Source of the DNA: Flavobacteriaceae bacterium PS02337
Lineage (GTDB): Bacteria > Bacteroidota > Bacteroidia > Flavobacteriales > Flavobacteriaceae
Direction: 5' to 3'
DNA: 64,000 nucleotides
Assembly: GCA_029959285.1 (NCBI GenBank)
Contig: JASCOE010000003.1
Location: forward strand, 1 to 64,000
Part shown: piece after piece, positions 13,097 to 63,192 of the stretch
Numbering within the stretch: the first letter of the stretch is position 1
Layout: each line of letters starts with the position of its first letter
Made by a program: the position numbers and the translations under genes
The notes under the pieces: generated by a model
What the model saw: only the letters and a program-made list of their open reading frames with translations
The model's database searches: none
What the model was told of the DNA's origin: nothing

Positions 13097-13159
13097 TTAT
13101 ACAAAATAGTCCCAGAGGGACGAAATATTTATAGAAAACATATTTGTTTGAGATAGAAG

Positions 13160-13208
13160 AGCTCCAGCGGAGCGACATATTTAATTTATATGTCGCTCCG
13201 CTGGAGCT
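13160..13208. repeat. Palindromic repeat, CTCCAGCGGAGCG family
   Basis: The perfect 21-bp arms are 13160-13180 and 13188-13208, core CTCCAGCGGAGCGACATAT. They are preceded by CAGAGGGACGAAATATTTATAG, a companion segment that recurs near 58595-58630. The element also ends in TTTTTA and may terminate the gene at 13096. Further members lie at 57180-57440 and 58470-58640. Confidence 0.8.
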
Positions 13209-13335
13209 TTTTATTGGTTTTTGTAAAATAGGATTCTATAAATATTATGCTTCTCCGAAGCATATTACATTTCTTAATTATTTTCTGTGCAACTAAAAAA
13301 AACTTAGAACCTCAGCAACTTAGAACCTCAGAACC

Positions 13336-56815: not shown

Positions 56816-57072
56816 CAAATGTATGACCGTTTTTCTAATTATGAAATAAATTTATCATAATATTTTCTTATCGTGTCATAGATTAATTTAAAAAGCTTTG
56901 AAATGCCTTTGTTTTATTGAAGTTTTTATCTGAATGATTTTTTTGAGAAGCAGAAAATTTTCGGTTTACAAGACCGTTTGTCCTGCTCTTCACTATATCT
57001 TTTGTGGTGAACCCCACCACAAAAGGATGCCGTTTCGATCAGGGCTAGGCAAGAACTGTTATTTTTCATAAG

Positions 57073-57105: not shown

Positions 57106-57179
57106 TAAAAACGAACAATTTTCTCTCAGTAAAATTCCAGAAGAATGAAATATTTATAGATTATTGATATGTGATTCAC

Positions 57180-57440
57180 AAAAAAGCTCCAGCGGAGCGA
57201 AATAATAATTGGTATAATACATAAATATGTCAGCCCGCCGAGGTTTTCATTGCAAATTGCGTTTCCAAATGGACTGAAGTCCAGCTCTACAATATTTTCC
57301 GAGCCTTTGGCTCTTTTGAGTTATGATAAGAATAGTTTTAAAATTACATTTCTAATATCATTGTAGATATGAATTAGACAATCAAAATAAAATTCCGAAG
57401 GAATGATTCATATTGAAGGGCTGGACTTCAGTCCAGTTTA
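57180..57440. repeat. CTCCAGCGGAGCG and GGACTGAAGTCCAG repeat units
   Basis: AAAGCTCCAGCGGAGCGAAATA at 57184-57205, then TGGACTGAAGTCCAGCTC (57271-57288) and its inverted form GGGCTGGACTTCAGTCCAG (57418-57436). Also CCGAGCCTTTGGCTC at 57299-57313. Several short palindromes are packed together, related to 13160-13208 and 58470-58640. Confidence 0.65.
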
Positions 57441-57691: not shown

Positions 57692-58240
57692 ATGAAAAAG
57701 AATATCGCCATATTAGCAACAAACGGTTTTGAAGAATCAGAATTAGCATCACCAAAAGCCTATCTTGAAGAGCAAGGTTGGAATGCAGATATCGTCAGCT
57801 TGAAATCTGGAACTATCAAATCTTGGAAAGACGGAAATTGGAGCAACGAATATAATGTTGATGTCGTATTAGATCAGGCAAATGAAGCAGATTATGATGC
57901 TTTGGTTATTCCAGGTGGAGTTATAAATCCTGATTTATTGAGAAGAGAAGAAGCAGCAGTAAATTTTGCACGTTCCTTTTTTGAAAGTAAAAAACCAGTA
58001 GCCGCTATTTGTCACGGACCTCAAATTTTGGTAGATGCTGACGTTTTAGAAGGTCGAAAAGTAACTTCATTCTTCTCTATTAAAAACGATTTGAAAAATG
58101 CTGGAGCACAATGGGAAGATTCAGAAGTTGTTGTAGACAATGGATTAGTGACGAGCCGAAACCCAAATGATTTGCCCGCTTTTAATAAAAAAATGGTGGA
58201 AGAAATTAAAGAAGGAATACATGAGCGCCATAGAGTTTAA
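57692..58240 (+). CDS. DJ-1/PfpI-family protein (type 1 glutamine amidotransferase fold)
   Basis: The protein has 182 residues. KNIAILATNGFEESELASPK has the family Glu (E15), and AAICHGPQ has the nucleophile Cys107 with His108. This is the PfpI/YhbO/YraA subfamily, known as stress-protective proteins and reported to act as protein or nucleotide deglycases or small peptidases; the real activity is debated. It is cytoplasmic and monocistronic, with its own terminator. Confidence 0.9.
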   Translation: MKKNIAILATNGFEESELASPKAYLEEQGWNADIVSLKSGTIKSWKDGNWSNEYNVDVVLDQANEADYDALVIPGGVINPDLLRREEAAVNFARSFFESKKPVAAICHGPQILVDADVLEGRKVTSFFSIKNDLKNAGAQWEDSEVVVDNGLVTSRNPNDLPAFNKKMVEEIKEGIHERHRV

Positions 58241-58308: not shown

Positions 58309-58357
58309 ATTAAATAGCCCCTAGTTTTAACTAGCGGATTAAAATATTCAATAGTAA

Positions 58358-58640
58358 TAAGGCTTTAGCCAAAATGTGTTTTTTGGCTAAAGCCTTACTA
58401 TCATTCTTATTTATACCTCCAGCTAAAGCTGGAGGCAATTGATTCTTTATTATAATGTGGTTTTAAAATCTGTAAAAGAAAATTCCGGAGGAATGAAATA
58501 TTTATAGATTCATAAAACGCACCGTACCAAAAACTCCAGCGGAGCGACATATCGTAAACAGATTTCAACCCGCTGGGGCTCTTTTAAAATGGGGAACATT
58601 GTTTTCTATAAATATTTCGTCCCGCTGGGACTTTCTCGAG
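58358..58640. repeat. Cluster of palindromes (AAGGCTTTAGCC, CCTCCAGC, CTCCAGCGGAGCG)
   Basis: ATAAGGCTTTAGCCAAAA (58357-58374) pairs with TTTTGGCTAAAGCCTTA (58381-58397). CCTCCAGCTAAAGCTGGAGG (58416-58435) is a second palindrome. AACTCCAGCGGAGCGACATA (58532-58551) and ACAGATTTCAACCCGCTGGGGCTC with TTTCTATAAATATTTCGTCC (58598-58617) belong to the same family as 13110-13208. Confidence 0.7.
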
Positions 58641-58645
58641 ACAAT

Positions 58646-58801
58646 ATGGCTAAAGTCTTAAGACAAGTAAATTGCATTTTTAGCTCTCGGCGTAATGCGA
58701 CAACACGAACCCTCCAAATTGGATTAACCAATTTTGAAGACAATTATTATTGGCTCAATGAATTGGCGGAGATTTTGAATCCTTATTTAAGTGAGGAGTA
58801 A
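58646..58801 (+). CDS. 51-residue frame, possible gene remnant
   Basis: The frame MAKVLRQVNCIFSSRRNATT and then RTLQIGLTNFEDNYYWLNEL, ending PYLSEE, has protein-like composition and is followed after 15 bases by a good terminator. Its upstream 19 codons run into palindromic repeat. It may be the tail of a larger lost gene that the repeat cut off, or a real small protein. I recognise no family. Confidence 0.3.
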   Translation: MAKVLRQVNCIFSSRRNATTRTLQIGLTNFEDNYYWLNELAEILNPYLSEE

Positions 58802-58926: not shown

Positions 58927-59691
58927 CTATAAATTTACTTTTTTGAGTACAAATTTTTTAGAAATTTCTTCGTCAATTGAAGCAACAAAATTAAATAATT
59001 GGAGATTTATGGAGGAAACATACGCGAAGTCAAAAATCAAATACTGTCCAATAGAATTTTTTAAATCAGGAAATTGTCGTGCAAAGTCTTTCGATATTTT
59101 CCTTCTATTATGTACGGTAAGATTTCTTTGCTTAATAAGTCTATTTATATTTTCCTTTGCGAGCTTAGTTTTAAAAAGATCTATTCCTAAACGACTTTGA
59201 AAAAATTTCTCAATGTCTTGAATCCCTTTGTAAAATAGTTCTTCAATCTTTTTATCAGATATTGCATTTATTAAGTCACTAAGTGATTCATGTTCCAGAA
59301 TGAAGTCCAATCTCTCGGTTTCCTGCGATTTTAGTATTTGTGGTTTGATAGAAACAACCTCTGAAAGAATTTCTTTAAAGTAAATTGAGAGATTATCAAT
59401 TGAGCTCACATATATCATTGAACATAGATGCTCCTCATAAAATCCTATATTTAGAAAAGTATCGATATTGTTAGTAAGACTTTCTTTGACAATTTCTGGA
59501 TTGTAAACATGATCATATATTCCCTTAAGATATTCTTTTGCTTCACTATTGTTTTTTAAAATAAGTTTGCTGCTAACCTCTAGATAACTGATAAGCATTT
59601 CAGACCGTTGTACTCCTTGCCGAAATCTCAAAAAAGATTCAGTTGATTCGGTAATTATTTTTGCGGGATATTTTTGATTATCTTCATTCAT
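58927..59691 (-). CDS. HEPN-type protein with R-x4-H motif (candidate RNase)
   Basis: I start at the ATG at 59691 (MNEDNQKYPAKIITESTESF); the frame also opens at a GTG at 59736. The protein has 254 residues, is all helical and has no signal peptide. Near the C-terminus, INRLIKQRNLTVHNRRKI contains Arg189-Asn190-x3-His194, the R-x4-H catalytic pattern of HEPN ribonucleases. An earlier helix MIYVSSIDNLSIYFKEIL resembles the first helix of HEPN domains in the MAE_28990/RiboL-PSP groups. HEPN proteins with this motif act in toxin-antitoxin and abortive-infection systems by cutting RNA. No clear antitoxin is adjacent. The next genes (AlbA_2-type and a nuclease-like membrane protein) also fit defence. 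The function is inferred. Confidence 0.6.
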   Translation of the reverse strand: MNEDNQKYPAKIITESTESFLRFRQGVQRSEMLISYLEVSSKLILKNNSEAKEYLKGIYDHVYNPEIVKESLTNNIDTFLNIGFYEEHLCSMIYVSSIDNLSIYFKEILSEVVSIKPQILKSQETERLDFILEHESLSDLINAISDKKIEELFYKGIQDIEKFFQSRLGIDLFKTKLAKENINRLIKQRNLTVHNRRKISKDFARQFPDLKNSIGQYLIFDFAYVSSINLQLFNFVASIDEEISKKFVLKKVNL

Positions 59692-59800
59692 ACGACGCTC
59701 GTAAATTAAATAGCACAAAAACTTAAATACGCTCACTACAAAGTAGTGACAGTTTATCCAAATTTGGTTGTATTGGCAAATGTTTATTTAGTATTTTTAT

Positions 59801-59857
59801 TTTTCAAAAATATGAATTTACCGATCTCAATAGCCAAGTATTTTTACCTGTTTATTA
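59801..59857. repeat. Left copy of imperfect direct repeat (about 55 bp)
   Basis: TCAAAAATATGAATTTACCG with ATCTCAATAGCCAAGTATTT and TTACCTGTTTATTA matches the copy at 61924-61981 at about 44 of 52 positions. The two copies flank the AlbA_2-type gene and the membrane nuclease gene and lie in the same orientation. Confidence 0.75.
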
Positions 59858-59921
59858 CTTATAAAACAAGTGCCTTAGCTTCGATGGGGAATTTGATGAT
59901 TTATTTGATGCAAAATAATTG

Positions 59922-59929
59922 TATGTTTG
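59922..59929 (+). promoter_or_regulatory. -7 box TATGTTTG for the AlbA_2-type gene
   Basis: TATGTTTG matches TAnnTTTG and lies 25 bases before the ATG at 59955. TTTG motifs exist upstream (59892-59895 and 59904-59907), but at 26- and 14-base spacing rather than 19. Confidence 0.45.
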
Positions 59930-59954
59930 AAATAACAATCAAAGAAAATAATAT

Positions 59955-60884
59955 ATGGAAATTCATAAACGAGAAGATTACGATATTGAATTTATTCAGT
60001 CACTTATAGATAATGGCATTGAAGAATCAATAAATGTAGATTTTAAAGCTTCTGGATCACTTTCAAAAGATGAGATGAAAAAAAAGGAAATATCTAAAGA
60101 TGTTTCTGCTTTCGCAAATTCAAACGGTGGAATTATTATTTATGGATTAACAGAAAAGAATCATAAAGCGGATAGTTTTTCTTTTATTGATGGTGATATT
60201 TTTTCGAAAGAATGGCTTGAACAAGTAATTAGTACAACAATTCAGCGTAATATCGATGGTTTAAAAATTTTTCCAATTAGAAATAATGGAAATATAAAAG
60301 AATCAATTTATGTTGTACAAATTCCTGAAAGTCAAGATGCACCACATATAAATAAAGATAAAAAATTTTATAGAAGATATGATTTTCAATCTGTTGTAAT
60401 GGAGGAATATGAAATTAGAAATTTATATGGAAGAAAATCAAAATCTAAACTAGCTATATCTACTTTAAATATTAGATATGAAGAAATAAAAGATGGCTTT
60501 ATTAATTTTTTGATGAGAGTAGATGTTGCCAACATTGGAGATATCGAAGAGGCAAACTATAAATTAAATACATATTTTAAGAATTTCATACCAAATAAAT
60601 TCAAAGTTAGTTGGCTTCAAGCTGATTCTAACAAAAATTACTGTTCAACACGTTTAGACGGGAATAGAAGTAAAGTAAGTAGTAATGGAACTTCAACGAT
60701 ATATCCAAATGAAACAATTAACATTAGTAGCTTTAATTTTTATATTCCTGTGAATGATATAGAAGAAGCCTTAAAAGATATGCATATTAGCTTTACACTT
60801 CTATTTTCAGGAGGACAAGATGAAGTTGATTTAGACGATAACTTAATGAGAGAGGCATATCTTAAAGGTCCTATAAATATCTAA
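59955..60884 (+). CDS. Schlafen AlbA_2-domain protein
   Basis: The protein has 309 residues. The N-terminal half is an AlbA_2 (Schlafen-like) domain: IEESINVDFKASGSL (residues 22-36), KDVSAFANSNGGIIIYGL (48-65), IPESQDAPHINKDKKFYRRY (123-142) and MEEYEIRNLYGR. In proteins of this type the domain binds or cuts nucleic acid. Residues about 160-309 are a beta-rich domain I do not recognise. There is no membrane segment. The gene is convergent with the membrane nuclease-like gene, 8 bases apart, and the pair is flanked by direct repeats. Confidence 0.75.
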   Translation: MEIHKREDYDIEFIQSLIDNGIEESINVDFKASGSLSKDEMKKKEISKDVSAFANSNGGIIIYGLTEKNHKADSFSFIDGDIFSKEWLEQVISTTIQRNIDGLKIFPIRNNGNIKESIYVVQIPESQDAPHINKDKKFYRRYDFQSVVMEEYEIRNLYGRKSKSKLAISTLNIRYEEIKDGFINFLMRVDVANIGDIEEANYKLNTYFKNFIPNKFKVSWLQADSNKNYCSTRLDGNRSKVSSNGTSTIYPNETINISSFNFYIPVNDIEEALKDMHISFTLLFSGGQDEVDLDDNLMREAYLKGPINI

Positions 60885-60892
60885 TTTTATAT

Positions 60893-61867
60893 CTAACTCT
60901 TTTTAAATGTATTAATTGCAAAACCACTAATTGAGCCAATAATGGTTATTAAAATACCTGAAATCCAAAGTGTCAACTGATCTATCCTGTCTTTTAGATT
61001 GTTAAATTTGGATTCATTTAATTCCTTTGCATTTGAAATTTCATTTTTTAAATATTGTATTTGAAATAACAATTCTTGTGTTTTAAATAGTTTCTCAGGA
61101 GTTTGACTAATTGAATTTTCAATATTATTGATACGATTTTTTAAATAAAGTATTTCTGTCTTTTCAGTGCTAATTTGGAATAGAGAATCTTGCCTTTGAA
61201 TAGTTTTTAAATTTCCCTCAAGTATAGATATTTTTCTTGTGATTTCATTTTGAAGACTTTCGATACTATCTTTTTCAAAATAATGTTTAAAAAAAGAAAA
61301 ATCATGTTTGTCATTGGTAAACAAATTGGAAGATATTATTGAAACTGAAAATACAGCAATAATTAAACTTAAAATTGAAGAAATAGCAGTACCTCTAATA
61401 ATTTCTTTTTTCTTTTTTATCTCTTTCTCTTTAATCTCTTCGTAATCTCGATATTCTTTTTTTTCATCTGCTCGGTTTTTAGATATGATGGTTTCGTATT
61501 GTGGAAAATCAGATAGTTCGATTTGCTTAAAAGTATCATTTTTTAAAACAAAAATTTTAAACGGATTTTCTTCTTTTCCATCTGGAATTACTATATAAGC
61601 AGGTATAGGTTTGTTTATTATATTTAAAAAACTTTTAATTTTATTAACATAATTATTTAATGCAAGCCTTGAACTTCCTTTAAATTCTACGAGAGCCAGA
61701 TAATTATTGTCACTTGTATCAAGTAAAATTAAATCTGCAATGTAAATCCTACTTGTTGAACCCATTTTAAGTTTAATAGGTGATTCAGATAAAAAACTTT
61801 CTTTTGGAAATCCCTTTTCTTTAATTAAAAAAGTTATAAAAATTTTAGATAATTCCTGTTCTCTCAT
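60893..61867 (-). CDS. Membrane-anchored coiled-coil protein with PD-(D/E)XK-like N-terminal domain
   Basis: The protein has 324 residues. Residues 1-115 resemble the HsdR N-terminal restriction-endonuclease fold: MREQELSKIFITFLIKEKGF, Asp45 in IADLILLD, then ALVEFKG with Glu61-x-Lys63, giving the D-x15-ExK pattern of PD-(D/E)XK nucleases. A basic stretch (EIKEKEIKKKKEIIRG) precedes TM1 (about 158-180). Residues about 200-298 form a coiled coil, and TM2 (about 300-320) ends the chain. The nuclease domain and the tail would be cytoplasmic. I know no named family with this layout. Location beside HEPN and AlbA_2-type genes suggests a defence role; that is inference. Confidence 0.65.
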   Translation of the reverse strand: MREQELSKIFITFLIKEKGFPKESFLSESPIKLKMGSTSRIYIADLILLDTSDNNYLALVEFKGSSRLALNNYVNKIKSFLNIINKPIPAYIVIPDGKEENPFKIFVLKNDTFKQIELSDFPQYETIISKNRADEKKEYRDYEEIKEKEIKKKKEIIRGTAISSILSLIIAVFSVSIISSNLFTNDKHDFSFFKHYFEKDSIESLQNEITRKISILEGNLKTIQRQDSLFQISTEKTEILYLKNRINNIENSISQTPEKLFKTQELLFQIQYLKNEISNAKELNESKFNNLKDRIDQLTLWISGILITIIGSISGFAINTFKKS

Positions 61868-61923: not shown

Positions 61924-61981
61924 GGTCAAAAATATCCATTTACCAATATCAACAACCACGTATTTCTACCTGAATTTATTA
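61924..61981. repeat. Right copy of imperfect direct repeat (about 55 bp)
   Basis: TCAAAAATATCCATTTACCA, then ATATCAACAACCACGTATTT and CTACCTGAATTTATTA. It is the same orientation as 59801-59857. Differences are mostly single bases, plus one insertion of two. Confidence 0.75.
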
Positions 61982-61984
61982 AAC

Positions 61985-62029
61985 AAAAAAAGGACAGTCC
62001 CTCCAATTAAAGAGGAACTGCCCTTTTAG
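61985..62029 (-). terminator. Terminator of the second RND operon
   Basis: AAAAAAAGGACAGTCCCTC pairs imperfectly with GAGGAACTGCCCTTTTAGG across an 8-nt loop. On the minus strand it ends in TTTTTTTG and lies 75 bases past the adaptor gene. Further small hairpins (GCAAATTTTTAAATTTGC, GCATTCCTAAGAATGC) lie between. Confidence 0.75.
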
Positions 62030-62103: not shown

Positions 62104-63192
62104 TTATTCGTTTATGACATCGCCTTCCTTAGTTTCTTCGCTGGCAATTTTTACCAGTTTATCGTTTGGAGTCAAATCGCCGAAAATTTCAATTTTATCT
62201 TCGATTTCTCTTCCTTTTTTAATGTCAACTCTTGTCGCTTTGTGGTTTACCACTTTCACCACATATAAACCTTCCGCAGAATTCACCACTGCCGTTTTTG
62301 GCACTACAAATGTGCTGTCTTTCGCGTTAAGCGGTAACAAAACTTCGGCAACCATTCCAGGCAATAAATTTCCTTTGGTGTTGTGAACGTCCATTTCAAC
62401 TCTTTCAGAACGCAGTTTCAAATCTAAAGCGCCAGACATTCTGGTAATTTTTGCTGTAAAAGTTTCTGGTAAAGATTTTACATTAAAACTCATTTCGTCG
62501 CCTGGGTGCAAATATCCTGTATACAATTCTGGAACCGAAACCGCCAAACGCAATTTACTTTGTTCCTGAATCGTTAATAAAGGCAAATCTGAACCTTTTC
62601 CTGCTGGTCCAACAAATGTTCCTAAATTCACATTTCTAGCCGCTACAACGCCATCAAAAGGAGCGCGAATTTCTAGATAACCTCTCATAATCGAAACTTC
62701 TTTATGCGCTGCAATTGCTGCTTGGTATTGTGCATAATCAGAATTCTTTTTACCGCTTGCCATTTCTAAGTCGTTTTTAGAAATCGTTCCTTCAACCTTG
62801 CTTGTTTCATACAAACGGTTGTAAGTGCTTTTGCTGGTTGCGTAAATCGCTTCCATCGATTTCAATCTCGATTCGGCTGCAGCCAATTGCGAACTGATTT
62901 CTGGTGCTTCTAAAACAATCAAAAGCTGTCCTTTTTTTACTTTCGTACCAATATCAACTTTCAATAATTTTACGAAACTGCTCACTTTTGCGTACAAATC
63001 AACTTGTTGGAAACCGGTTAATTCAGCAGGCAAACGCAATTCTGTTGTTAGTTTTTCTTTCGCTAAAGCGAAAGTTTCTACTTTAGGTTCTATTTCTGCT
63101 TTCGCAGTTTCTTCTTTTTTCTTTTCGCAACCGCTTAATACAACTAGTGCTGTAAATAATAATGCAGATGATTTTATAATATTACTTTTCAT
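62104..63192 (-). CDS. RND efflux periplasmic adaptor lipoprotein (second system)
   Basis: I use the ATG at 63192, which gives MKSNIIKSSALLFTALVVLS followed by GC, the lipobox; the frame opens further upstream at 63282 but would overlap the permease gene. The protein has 362 residues. VDLYAKVSSFVKLLKVDIGT and RAPFDGVVAARNVNLGTFVG are the lipoyl halves, with a hairpin between. It connects an RND permease to an outer-membrane factor. It follows the permease gene; adaptor-first order is more common, so the operon is rearranged. Confidence 0.9.
   Translation of the reverse strand: MKSNIIKSSALLFTALVVLSGCEKKKEETAKAEIEPKVETFALAKEKLTTELRLPAELTGFQQVDLYAKVSSFVKLLKVDIGTKVKKGQLLIVLEAPEISSQLAAAESRLKSMEAIYATSKSTYNRLYETSKVEGTISKNDLEMASGKKNSDYAQYQAAIAAHKEVSIMRGYLEIRAPFDGVVAARNVNLGTFVGPAGKGSDLPLLTIQEQSKLRLAVSVPELYTGYLHPGDEMSFNVKSLPETFTAKITRMSGALDLKLRSERVEMDVHNTKGNLLPGMVAEVLLPLNAKDSTFVVPKTAVVNSAEGLYVVKVVNHKATRVDIKKGREIEDKIEIFGDLTPNDKLVKIASEETKEGDVINE

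Follow-up and report, generated by a model that had tools for sequence, protein, structure and literature searches.

Three adjacent genes, encoding a HEPN-like protein, a Schlafen protein of the AlbA_2 type and a PD-(D/E)XK nuclease-like protein with two membrane helices, lie near the right end of a 64,000-nucleotide (nt) stretch of DNA (contig JASCOE010000003.1, positions 1 to 64,000; referred to in its full length as the window) from Flavobacteriaceae bacterium PS02337, which belongs to the genus Flavobacterium and has a genome of 5.7 Mb (Table 1). The genes are where an initial annotation, made from the sequence alone, had placed them, and its account of the surroundings agrees with ours: the DNA is very A+T-rich (G+C of 29% in the HEPN gene, 27% in AlbA_2 and 25% in the nuclease gene vs. 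37-38% in the flanking DJ-1 and efflux adaptor genes), inverted repeats (58350-58405 and 58477-58636) stand on the left and the efflux operon on the right. The open reading frame (ORF) of the HEPN-like protein would span 58927-59736(-) if it began at a GTG at 59736; the ATG at 59691 is the likelier start. Since the strand order is -, +, -, the three genes are not one operon; the AlbA_2 and nuclease genes are convergent and 8 nt apart, with the two window copies of a promoter-like element, which we refer to as D1, on either side. G and L numbers below denote genomes and loci, respectively, of our comparison set.

Table 1. The three genes and neighbouring features in the window (aa, amino acids).
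Feature	Position	Strand	Remarks
HEPN-like protein	58927..59691	-	254 aa from ATG at 59691; R189 and H194 of R-x4-H; predicted RNase
Schlafen/AlbA_2 protein	59955..60884	+	309 aa; Schlafen-like N-terminal domain with E24, D29, E67; C-terminal Ig-like beta-sandwich
PD-(D/E)XK (HSDR_N_2) nuclease-like protein	60893..61867	-	324 aa; two membrane helices around a long inter-helix segment
D1 element, copy A	59800..59852	-	promoter-like, upstream of HEPN; 57.7 bits; part of the model-building set
D1 element, copy B	61924..61972	-	upstream of the nuclease gene, beside the efflux-operon terminator; 54.9 bits; part of the model-building set
Terminator-like hairpin	61985..62027		between efflux operon and D1 copy B; many relatives have a similar hairpin here
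Truncated copy of conserved 77-aa small gene	58598..58801	+	palindromic repeat replaces its 5' part; left border of cargo in relatives
Palindromic repeat pair	58477..58636		dispersed repeat, not a component of a system
DJ-1/PfpI gene	57692..58240	+	left core flank of the site
Efflux adaptor gene (conserved part)	62104..63192	-	right core flank; query that located the site in 77 other genomes of 300

Each of the three proteins is a new member of a known superfamily. The Schlafen assignment of the initial annotation is borne out: the AlbA_2 protein scores 57.2 bits against Pfam SLFN_AlbA_2 (PF04326; curated cut-off 25.3), and it carries the active-site carboxylates of the family, which in 38 aligned AlbA_2 sequences are kept as E24 in 37, as E67 in 38 and at position 29 as D in 30 and E in 7. 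The window's E24, D29 and E67 align with E205, E210 and D248 of rat SLFN13, which the portion of the source available to us describes as a Schlafen-family RNase with three active-site carboxylates (PMC5862951). The N-terminal fold is shared as well; the window protein differs in having a single AlbA_2 domain followed by an Ig-like C-terminal domain, whereas the mammalian cores are, according to the same portion, pseudo-dimers (PMC5862951). We predict that the protein most likely acts as a Schlafen-type RNase. The nuclease-like protein also stands as first described: it exceeds the cut-off of Pfam HSDR_N_2 (PF13588; 30.1 vs. 25 bits), its E3, D45, E61 and K63 are identical in all three aligned sequences, and its hydropathy peaks near residues 160-178 and 300-318, with ~120 residues in between. 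While profile match and motif residues tie it to the HSDR_N_2-type PD-(D/E)XK proteins, it has no helicase or motor domain and has two membrane helices instead. Its relatives are scarce (2 others among 200 genus genomes at 1e-10; 1 other among 346 genomes of the order at 1e-8), none was found in viral contigs or in plasmids, and a PDB sequence search returned a chance coiled-coil match only. The relative in G414 adjoins two copies of a recombinase/transposase-like gene set (L281:5636-12225).

For the HEPN-like protein, the assignment holds by its motif, as R and H of R-x4-H (R-x4-6-H in the superfamily) are invariant in two alignments with distant relatives, one of 6 and one of 7 sequences, but not by its Pfam score, which reaches only 11.5 bits against HEPN_RiboL-PSP (PF18735; curated cut-off 28.4); a PADLOC search and a PDB sequence search both gave no match. 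The Foldseek check proposed with the annotation was uninformative, the predicted structure being of low confidence (predicted local distance difference test (pLDDT) score 58.8) and the best match (E 0.51) not significant. Re-alignment of 420 chains to this low-confidence model with VIA-align ranked HEPN/HepT toxins, YutE and SO_3166 as the top six; we take YutE and SO_3166 to be HEPN-like. Between the window and G111 copies (254 codons), the nonsynonymous rate (dN) is 0.029 and the synonymous rate (dS) 0.11, and the resulting dN/dS of 0.26 indicates that the gene is under selection. With HEPN proteins of the MAE_18760 type, as far as the accessible part of a 2013 survey describes them, it shares R-x4-H, what appears to be a mostly helical make-up and relatives with a Schlafen/AlbA_2 fusion (Schlafen fusions of that family are already listed there); it differs in being unfused and in scoring under the Pfam cut-off (PMC3710099). 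HEPN searches of viral contigs gave 3 and later 9 loci, all distant, and plasmids gave 1 distant match; one of the viral contigs encodes a 458-aa HEPN-containing protein (L142:5536-6912) alongside DNA-polymerase- and primase-like genes.

Of 300 genus genomes, 78 (the own one among them) carry the efflux adaptor gene, and ~10 kb downstream of it were retrieved for 40 of the 77 others, which together with the stretch from G111 makes 41 loci, one of them (L104) cut by a contig end. The left flank is DJ-1 or TetR in 28/41 loci (it was not reached in 13), and the first ORF of 100 aa or more next to the adaptor is on the strand of the efflux operon in 38/41 (window included; L089 has no such ORF). 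Between these conserved flanks, the cargo differs from genome to genome: clustering of the adaptor-proximal proteins from 41 occupied sites (the window's among them) gave 39 clusters, of which 37 are singletons, and L089 is an empty site, with 404 nt from DJ-1 to the adaptor. The comparison shows a variable site of the kind already known as core defence hotspots, at least as the available part of the report on Pseudomonas aeruginosa cDHS1 and cDHS2 presents them (PMC10250203): there, too, core genes flank a spot whose immune systems differ between genomes, G+C is under the host level, and no single mobile element accounts for the site. Unlike cDHS1 and cDHS2 as described in that part, the site studied here is in another genus, has other flanks (efflux operon and DJ-1/TetR), is smaller, and has a repeated small gene at its border and a promoter-like element before unrelated cargo (PMC10250203). 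At L107, a border stretch (D1, terminator and following sequence) is duplicated around 2.9 kb of cargo, which, on the sequence, looks like stacking by recombination within conserved borders.

Comparison also shows that the three genes have separate histories. The same site exists in G111, where DJ-1, HEPN and the efflux operon are kept (91-95% DNA identity; HEPN 94.7%) and a gene for a 356-aa predicted lipoprotein occupies the place of AlbA_2 and nuclease, neither of which was found in G111. The dS of HEPN (0.11) is lower than that of its flanks (adaptor, 0.29; DJ-1, 0.23), which suggests that the HEPN block was exchanged later than the divergence of the flanking genes. Among 200 genus genomes (taken as one draw in the AlbA_2, nuclease and HEPN searches, in view of their equal size and common labels), relatives of AlbA_2 (E up to 1e-20) occur in 5 others and relatives of HEPN in 5 others (1 close, 4 distant), and at the thresholds used none besides the own genome has two of the three genes. 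A contig scan with the window AlbA_2 sequence alone gave no match; with the AlbA_2 alignment as query, 80 loci were obtained (flanks of up to 8 kb, some shortened by contig ends; the neighbour scan covered 102 of 131 selected ORFs), and these had the nuclease in their flanks in 0/80 cases and a HEPN gene in 1/80 (L165, F. silvaticum, two genes away). Neither an AlbA_2 nor a HEPN gene accompanies the nuclease relatives of G183 and G414 on the 3.4 and 13 kb read, respectively, and the contig of G031 ends within its nuclease copy. The neighbourhood survey proposed with the initial annotation has thus gone against its suggestion that the three genes work together, as they were not together in other genomes and HEPN in G111 stands beside a different gene; as far as sequence comparison goes, this is not a conserved three-gene system.

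D1 is a ~50-nt element, upstream of both HEPN and nuclease, with the Flavobacterium TAnnTTTG box, which the part of the source at hand identifies as the sigma-A -7 box in flavobacteria (PMC9723704). On the minus strand, the window copies read TTG-N17-23-TATTTTTG. Across 14 aligned copies, TATTTTT of the box is invariant and the next G nearly so, and our reading of this alignment adds a conserved block outside the promoter box, GGTAnAAnTACnTnGnTnTT. In the whole own genome, a sequence-only model of D1 has two strong matches, which are the window copies (6e-15 and 4e-14; next 0.08); this model search was used in place of a DNA search with copy A, which did not have copy B among its matches. At 25 bits or more, the model finds D1 in 14/41 hotspot loci (11 used in building the model, 3 not) and in 3/20 other loci of the small border gene (L258, L260 and L267, none used in building it), whereas 0/20 control regions reach 12 bits. 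Of 20 D1 copies, all except the one in L102 are followed, after 34-227 nt, by an ORF that codes for at least 80 aa and runs in the same direction. Besides HEPN and nuclease, the genes behind D1 include one for a TIR protein (L074) and, with names partly read from sequence, one for a PHP/SMC-like protein (L083) and one for an AAA protein beside a helicase-like gene (L267); the HEPN leader resembles the leader of an unrelated gene (L086) over ~120 nt. By itself, TANNTTTG is not enriched (17 found in an 8-kb stretch vs. 13.4 expected from shuffles), so the argument depends on the conserved ~50-nt element. Two D1 patterns had no match in viral contigs.

D1 was also considered as a direct repeat from an insertion, flanking AlbA_2 and nuclease, and this was dropped because each copy shows TTG-N17-23-TANNTTTG pointing into a gene. 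Nor do we think it likely that D1 is, instead of a promoter, a recombination site or a remnant of the 3' flank of the efflux operon carried along with cargo: D1 does adjoin the efflux terminator in several relatives, and it belongs to the longer border duplicated in L107, but the near-invariance of its box across 14 copies, the direction of 19 of 20 copies into a close-by ORF and the different sequence behind D1 at L258, L260 and L267 all speak against this. In L100, L102 and L110, D1 lies back to back with a Flavo-1 RNA; near window copy A, there is a degenerate Flavo-1 look-alike, seen by eye only, to which Rfam gives no score up to E 1. Elsewhere in the window, a Flavo-1 RNA (Rfam RF01705, 75.6 bits) lies at 56975-57050(-), near the TetR gene. 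By eye, a second motif like TTTTCCRTAA can be seen ~20-50 nt downstream of D1 in the leaders of L258, L260, L267, L100, L107 and L110.

The small border gene (~77 aa; tblastn) lies between left flank and adaptor in 32/41 loci and beyond DJ-1 in 2, and was not found in 7; the window copy has no 5' part. Extra full or partial copies stand between cargo genes in L076, L077, L084, L087, L101 and L111, as if each incoming block had left a border copy. The gene is present in 54/300 genus genomes, with 1-9 copies each, and when 20 copies from elsewhere (L254-L273) were compared, three groups (L257/L262/L264/L265, L255/L266 and L271/L272) shared the far flank and differed beside the small gene, so that it seems, from these sequences, to mark several variable sites; two of the 20 loci have type II methyltransferases. 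A c4-2 RNA precedes some copies and was found in 4/8 sources scanned (not in the window, L026, L081 or L110), and is therefore not universal. Sequence resembling the inverted repeats beside the window copy also occurs at 13104-13246 and 57133-57204, and all three match one repeat in L026. No published description of the hotspot, D1 or the small gene was found in the literature searched (few subscription papers; preprints only via PubMed Central).

To gauge the defence content of the cargo, 92 ORFs of at least 110 aa from 30 of the 41 loci, those in which a count from ORFs had placed the small gene, were compared in PADLOC with 88 control ORFs from 20 regions of the same genomes. The cargo matched 177 families at 1e-5 and 27 at 1e-30 vs. 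37 and 10 (the latter counted from the list) in the control; as PADLOC models are redundant and the control regions were picked non-randomly, at round coordinates, these figures are to be read as an enrichment and not as a rate. Control matches were mostly to generic-looking models (e.g. RtcR, capP/capH), and the cargo sets include NsnA/B/C, PDC-M30A/B, M37A/B, M60A/B/C and M65A/B; AbiU and TIR proteins are further occupants of the hotspot. When 20 large cargo proteins were scanned one by one, 9 matched. With this qualification on controls and models, the site is enriched in defence genes as a core defence hotspot is. The phage-defence role that the initial annotation gave to the three genes gains support from this location, in a cargo hotspot with known defence occupants, and from the restriction-modification genes that adjoin relatives of AlbA_2.

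How the three genes are grouped can be read in other ways. They may form two units, HEPN alone and AlbA_2/nuclease acting as a pair, as the latter are convergent and bracketed by both D1 copies, are both more A+T-rich than HEPN and are both missing in G111; however, convergent genes are not an operon and the two were not found together elsewhere, and we consider this distinctly unlikely. That the three genes play no part in defence and are instead selfish or degrading occupants of a variable site (e.g. toxin-antitoxin-like remnants) appears improbable: many cargo ORFs do have no defence match, and a predicted lipoprotein stands at the same place in G111, yet the catalytic residues are kept, HEPN has a low dN/dS, and restriction-modification genes adjoin AlbA_2 relatives. 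A single defence system in which HEPN, AlbA_2 and membrane nuclease act jointly can be suggested from their adjacency, from the AlbA_2-HEPN fusions in other proteins (PMC3710099, in the part available) and from the D1 common to HEPN and nuclease, but is very improbable given the strand order, the lack of co-occurrence among the 200 genomes, the G111 site with HEPN alone of the three, and the AlbA_2 and nuclease loci read elsewhere.

We therefore favour, at about three chances in four, the reading that the three genes are separately acquired cargo of a Flavobacterium defence-rich hotspot, most likely stand-alone anti-phage effectors, two of them behind a shared D1 promoter/operator. Several points weigh against it. 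The three window proteins are covered by no PADLOC model; 11 of the 20 large cargo proteins gave no PADLOC match when scanned individually, and thus some cargo need not be defence; the excess at 1e-30 is only 27 vs. 10 families, with the redundancy and control choice already described. D1, found in 14/41 hotspot loci only, 11 of which helped build its model, is not general, the structural model of HEPN is weak, and no recombinase gene was identified in the window's block. Moreover, in G024, G208 and G476, the distant relatives of HEPN are fused to an AlbA_2 domain and lie beside a large GHKL-like ATPase gene, which, with the D1 shared by HEPN and nuclease, leans towards the joint action first proposed; from these fusions, both domains can work together, yet the two genes here are no conserved pair. 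In G208 and G476, the fusion (358 aa) belongs to a five-gene operon (301, 390, ~350, 850 (GHKL-like) and 358 aa; L036:6887-13623 and L284:338-7072) near ParA-like and mobilisation-like genes, likely a mobile defence system in its own right; no fused AlbA_2-HEPN protein was found in viral contigs.

Under separate acquisition, HEPN, AlbA_2 and nuclease would each have entered the hotspot on its own, HEPN acting as an RNase, AlbA_2 as a Schlafen-type RNase and the third protein as a membrane-anchored PD-(D/E)XK nuclease with presumed DNase activity. HEPN and nuclease would each be transcribed leftwards from a D1 copy, an element that also precedes unrelated cargo, both at this site in other species and at further small-gene sites, and cargo would be swapped and stacked through recombination between the conserved borders. 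Integron gene-cassette arrays likewise hold exchangeable genes with a resident promoter, and at the Flavobacterium site, too, exchangeable genes follow a common promoter-like element; here, however, no integrase or attC site was identified, D1 recurs at other sites, and the border duplications resemble ordinary recombination.

It is possible, and we offer it tentatively as something we would not yet bet on, that D1 is a regulated promoter common to unrelated immune genes at several hotspots (a defence regulon), that the small gene with its c4-2 RNA leader marks these hotspots and helps them recombine, and that HEPN and the membrane nuclease are under D1 here. If so, newly captured genes would come under one common control, and, were D1 a common promoter/operator, this would reveal how genes captured for defence gain such control in a phylum whose promoters are of a type of their own, and would give a sequence handle on the regulator. 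In place of a guessed three-gene system, there is now a testable rule, namely to seek new immune genes downstream of the efflux operon, beside the small gene and behind D1, and the three proteins are good candidates for single-gene assays.

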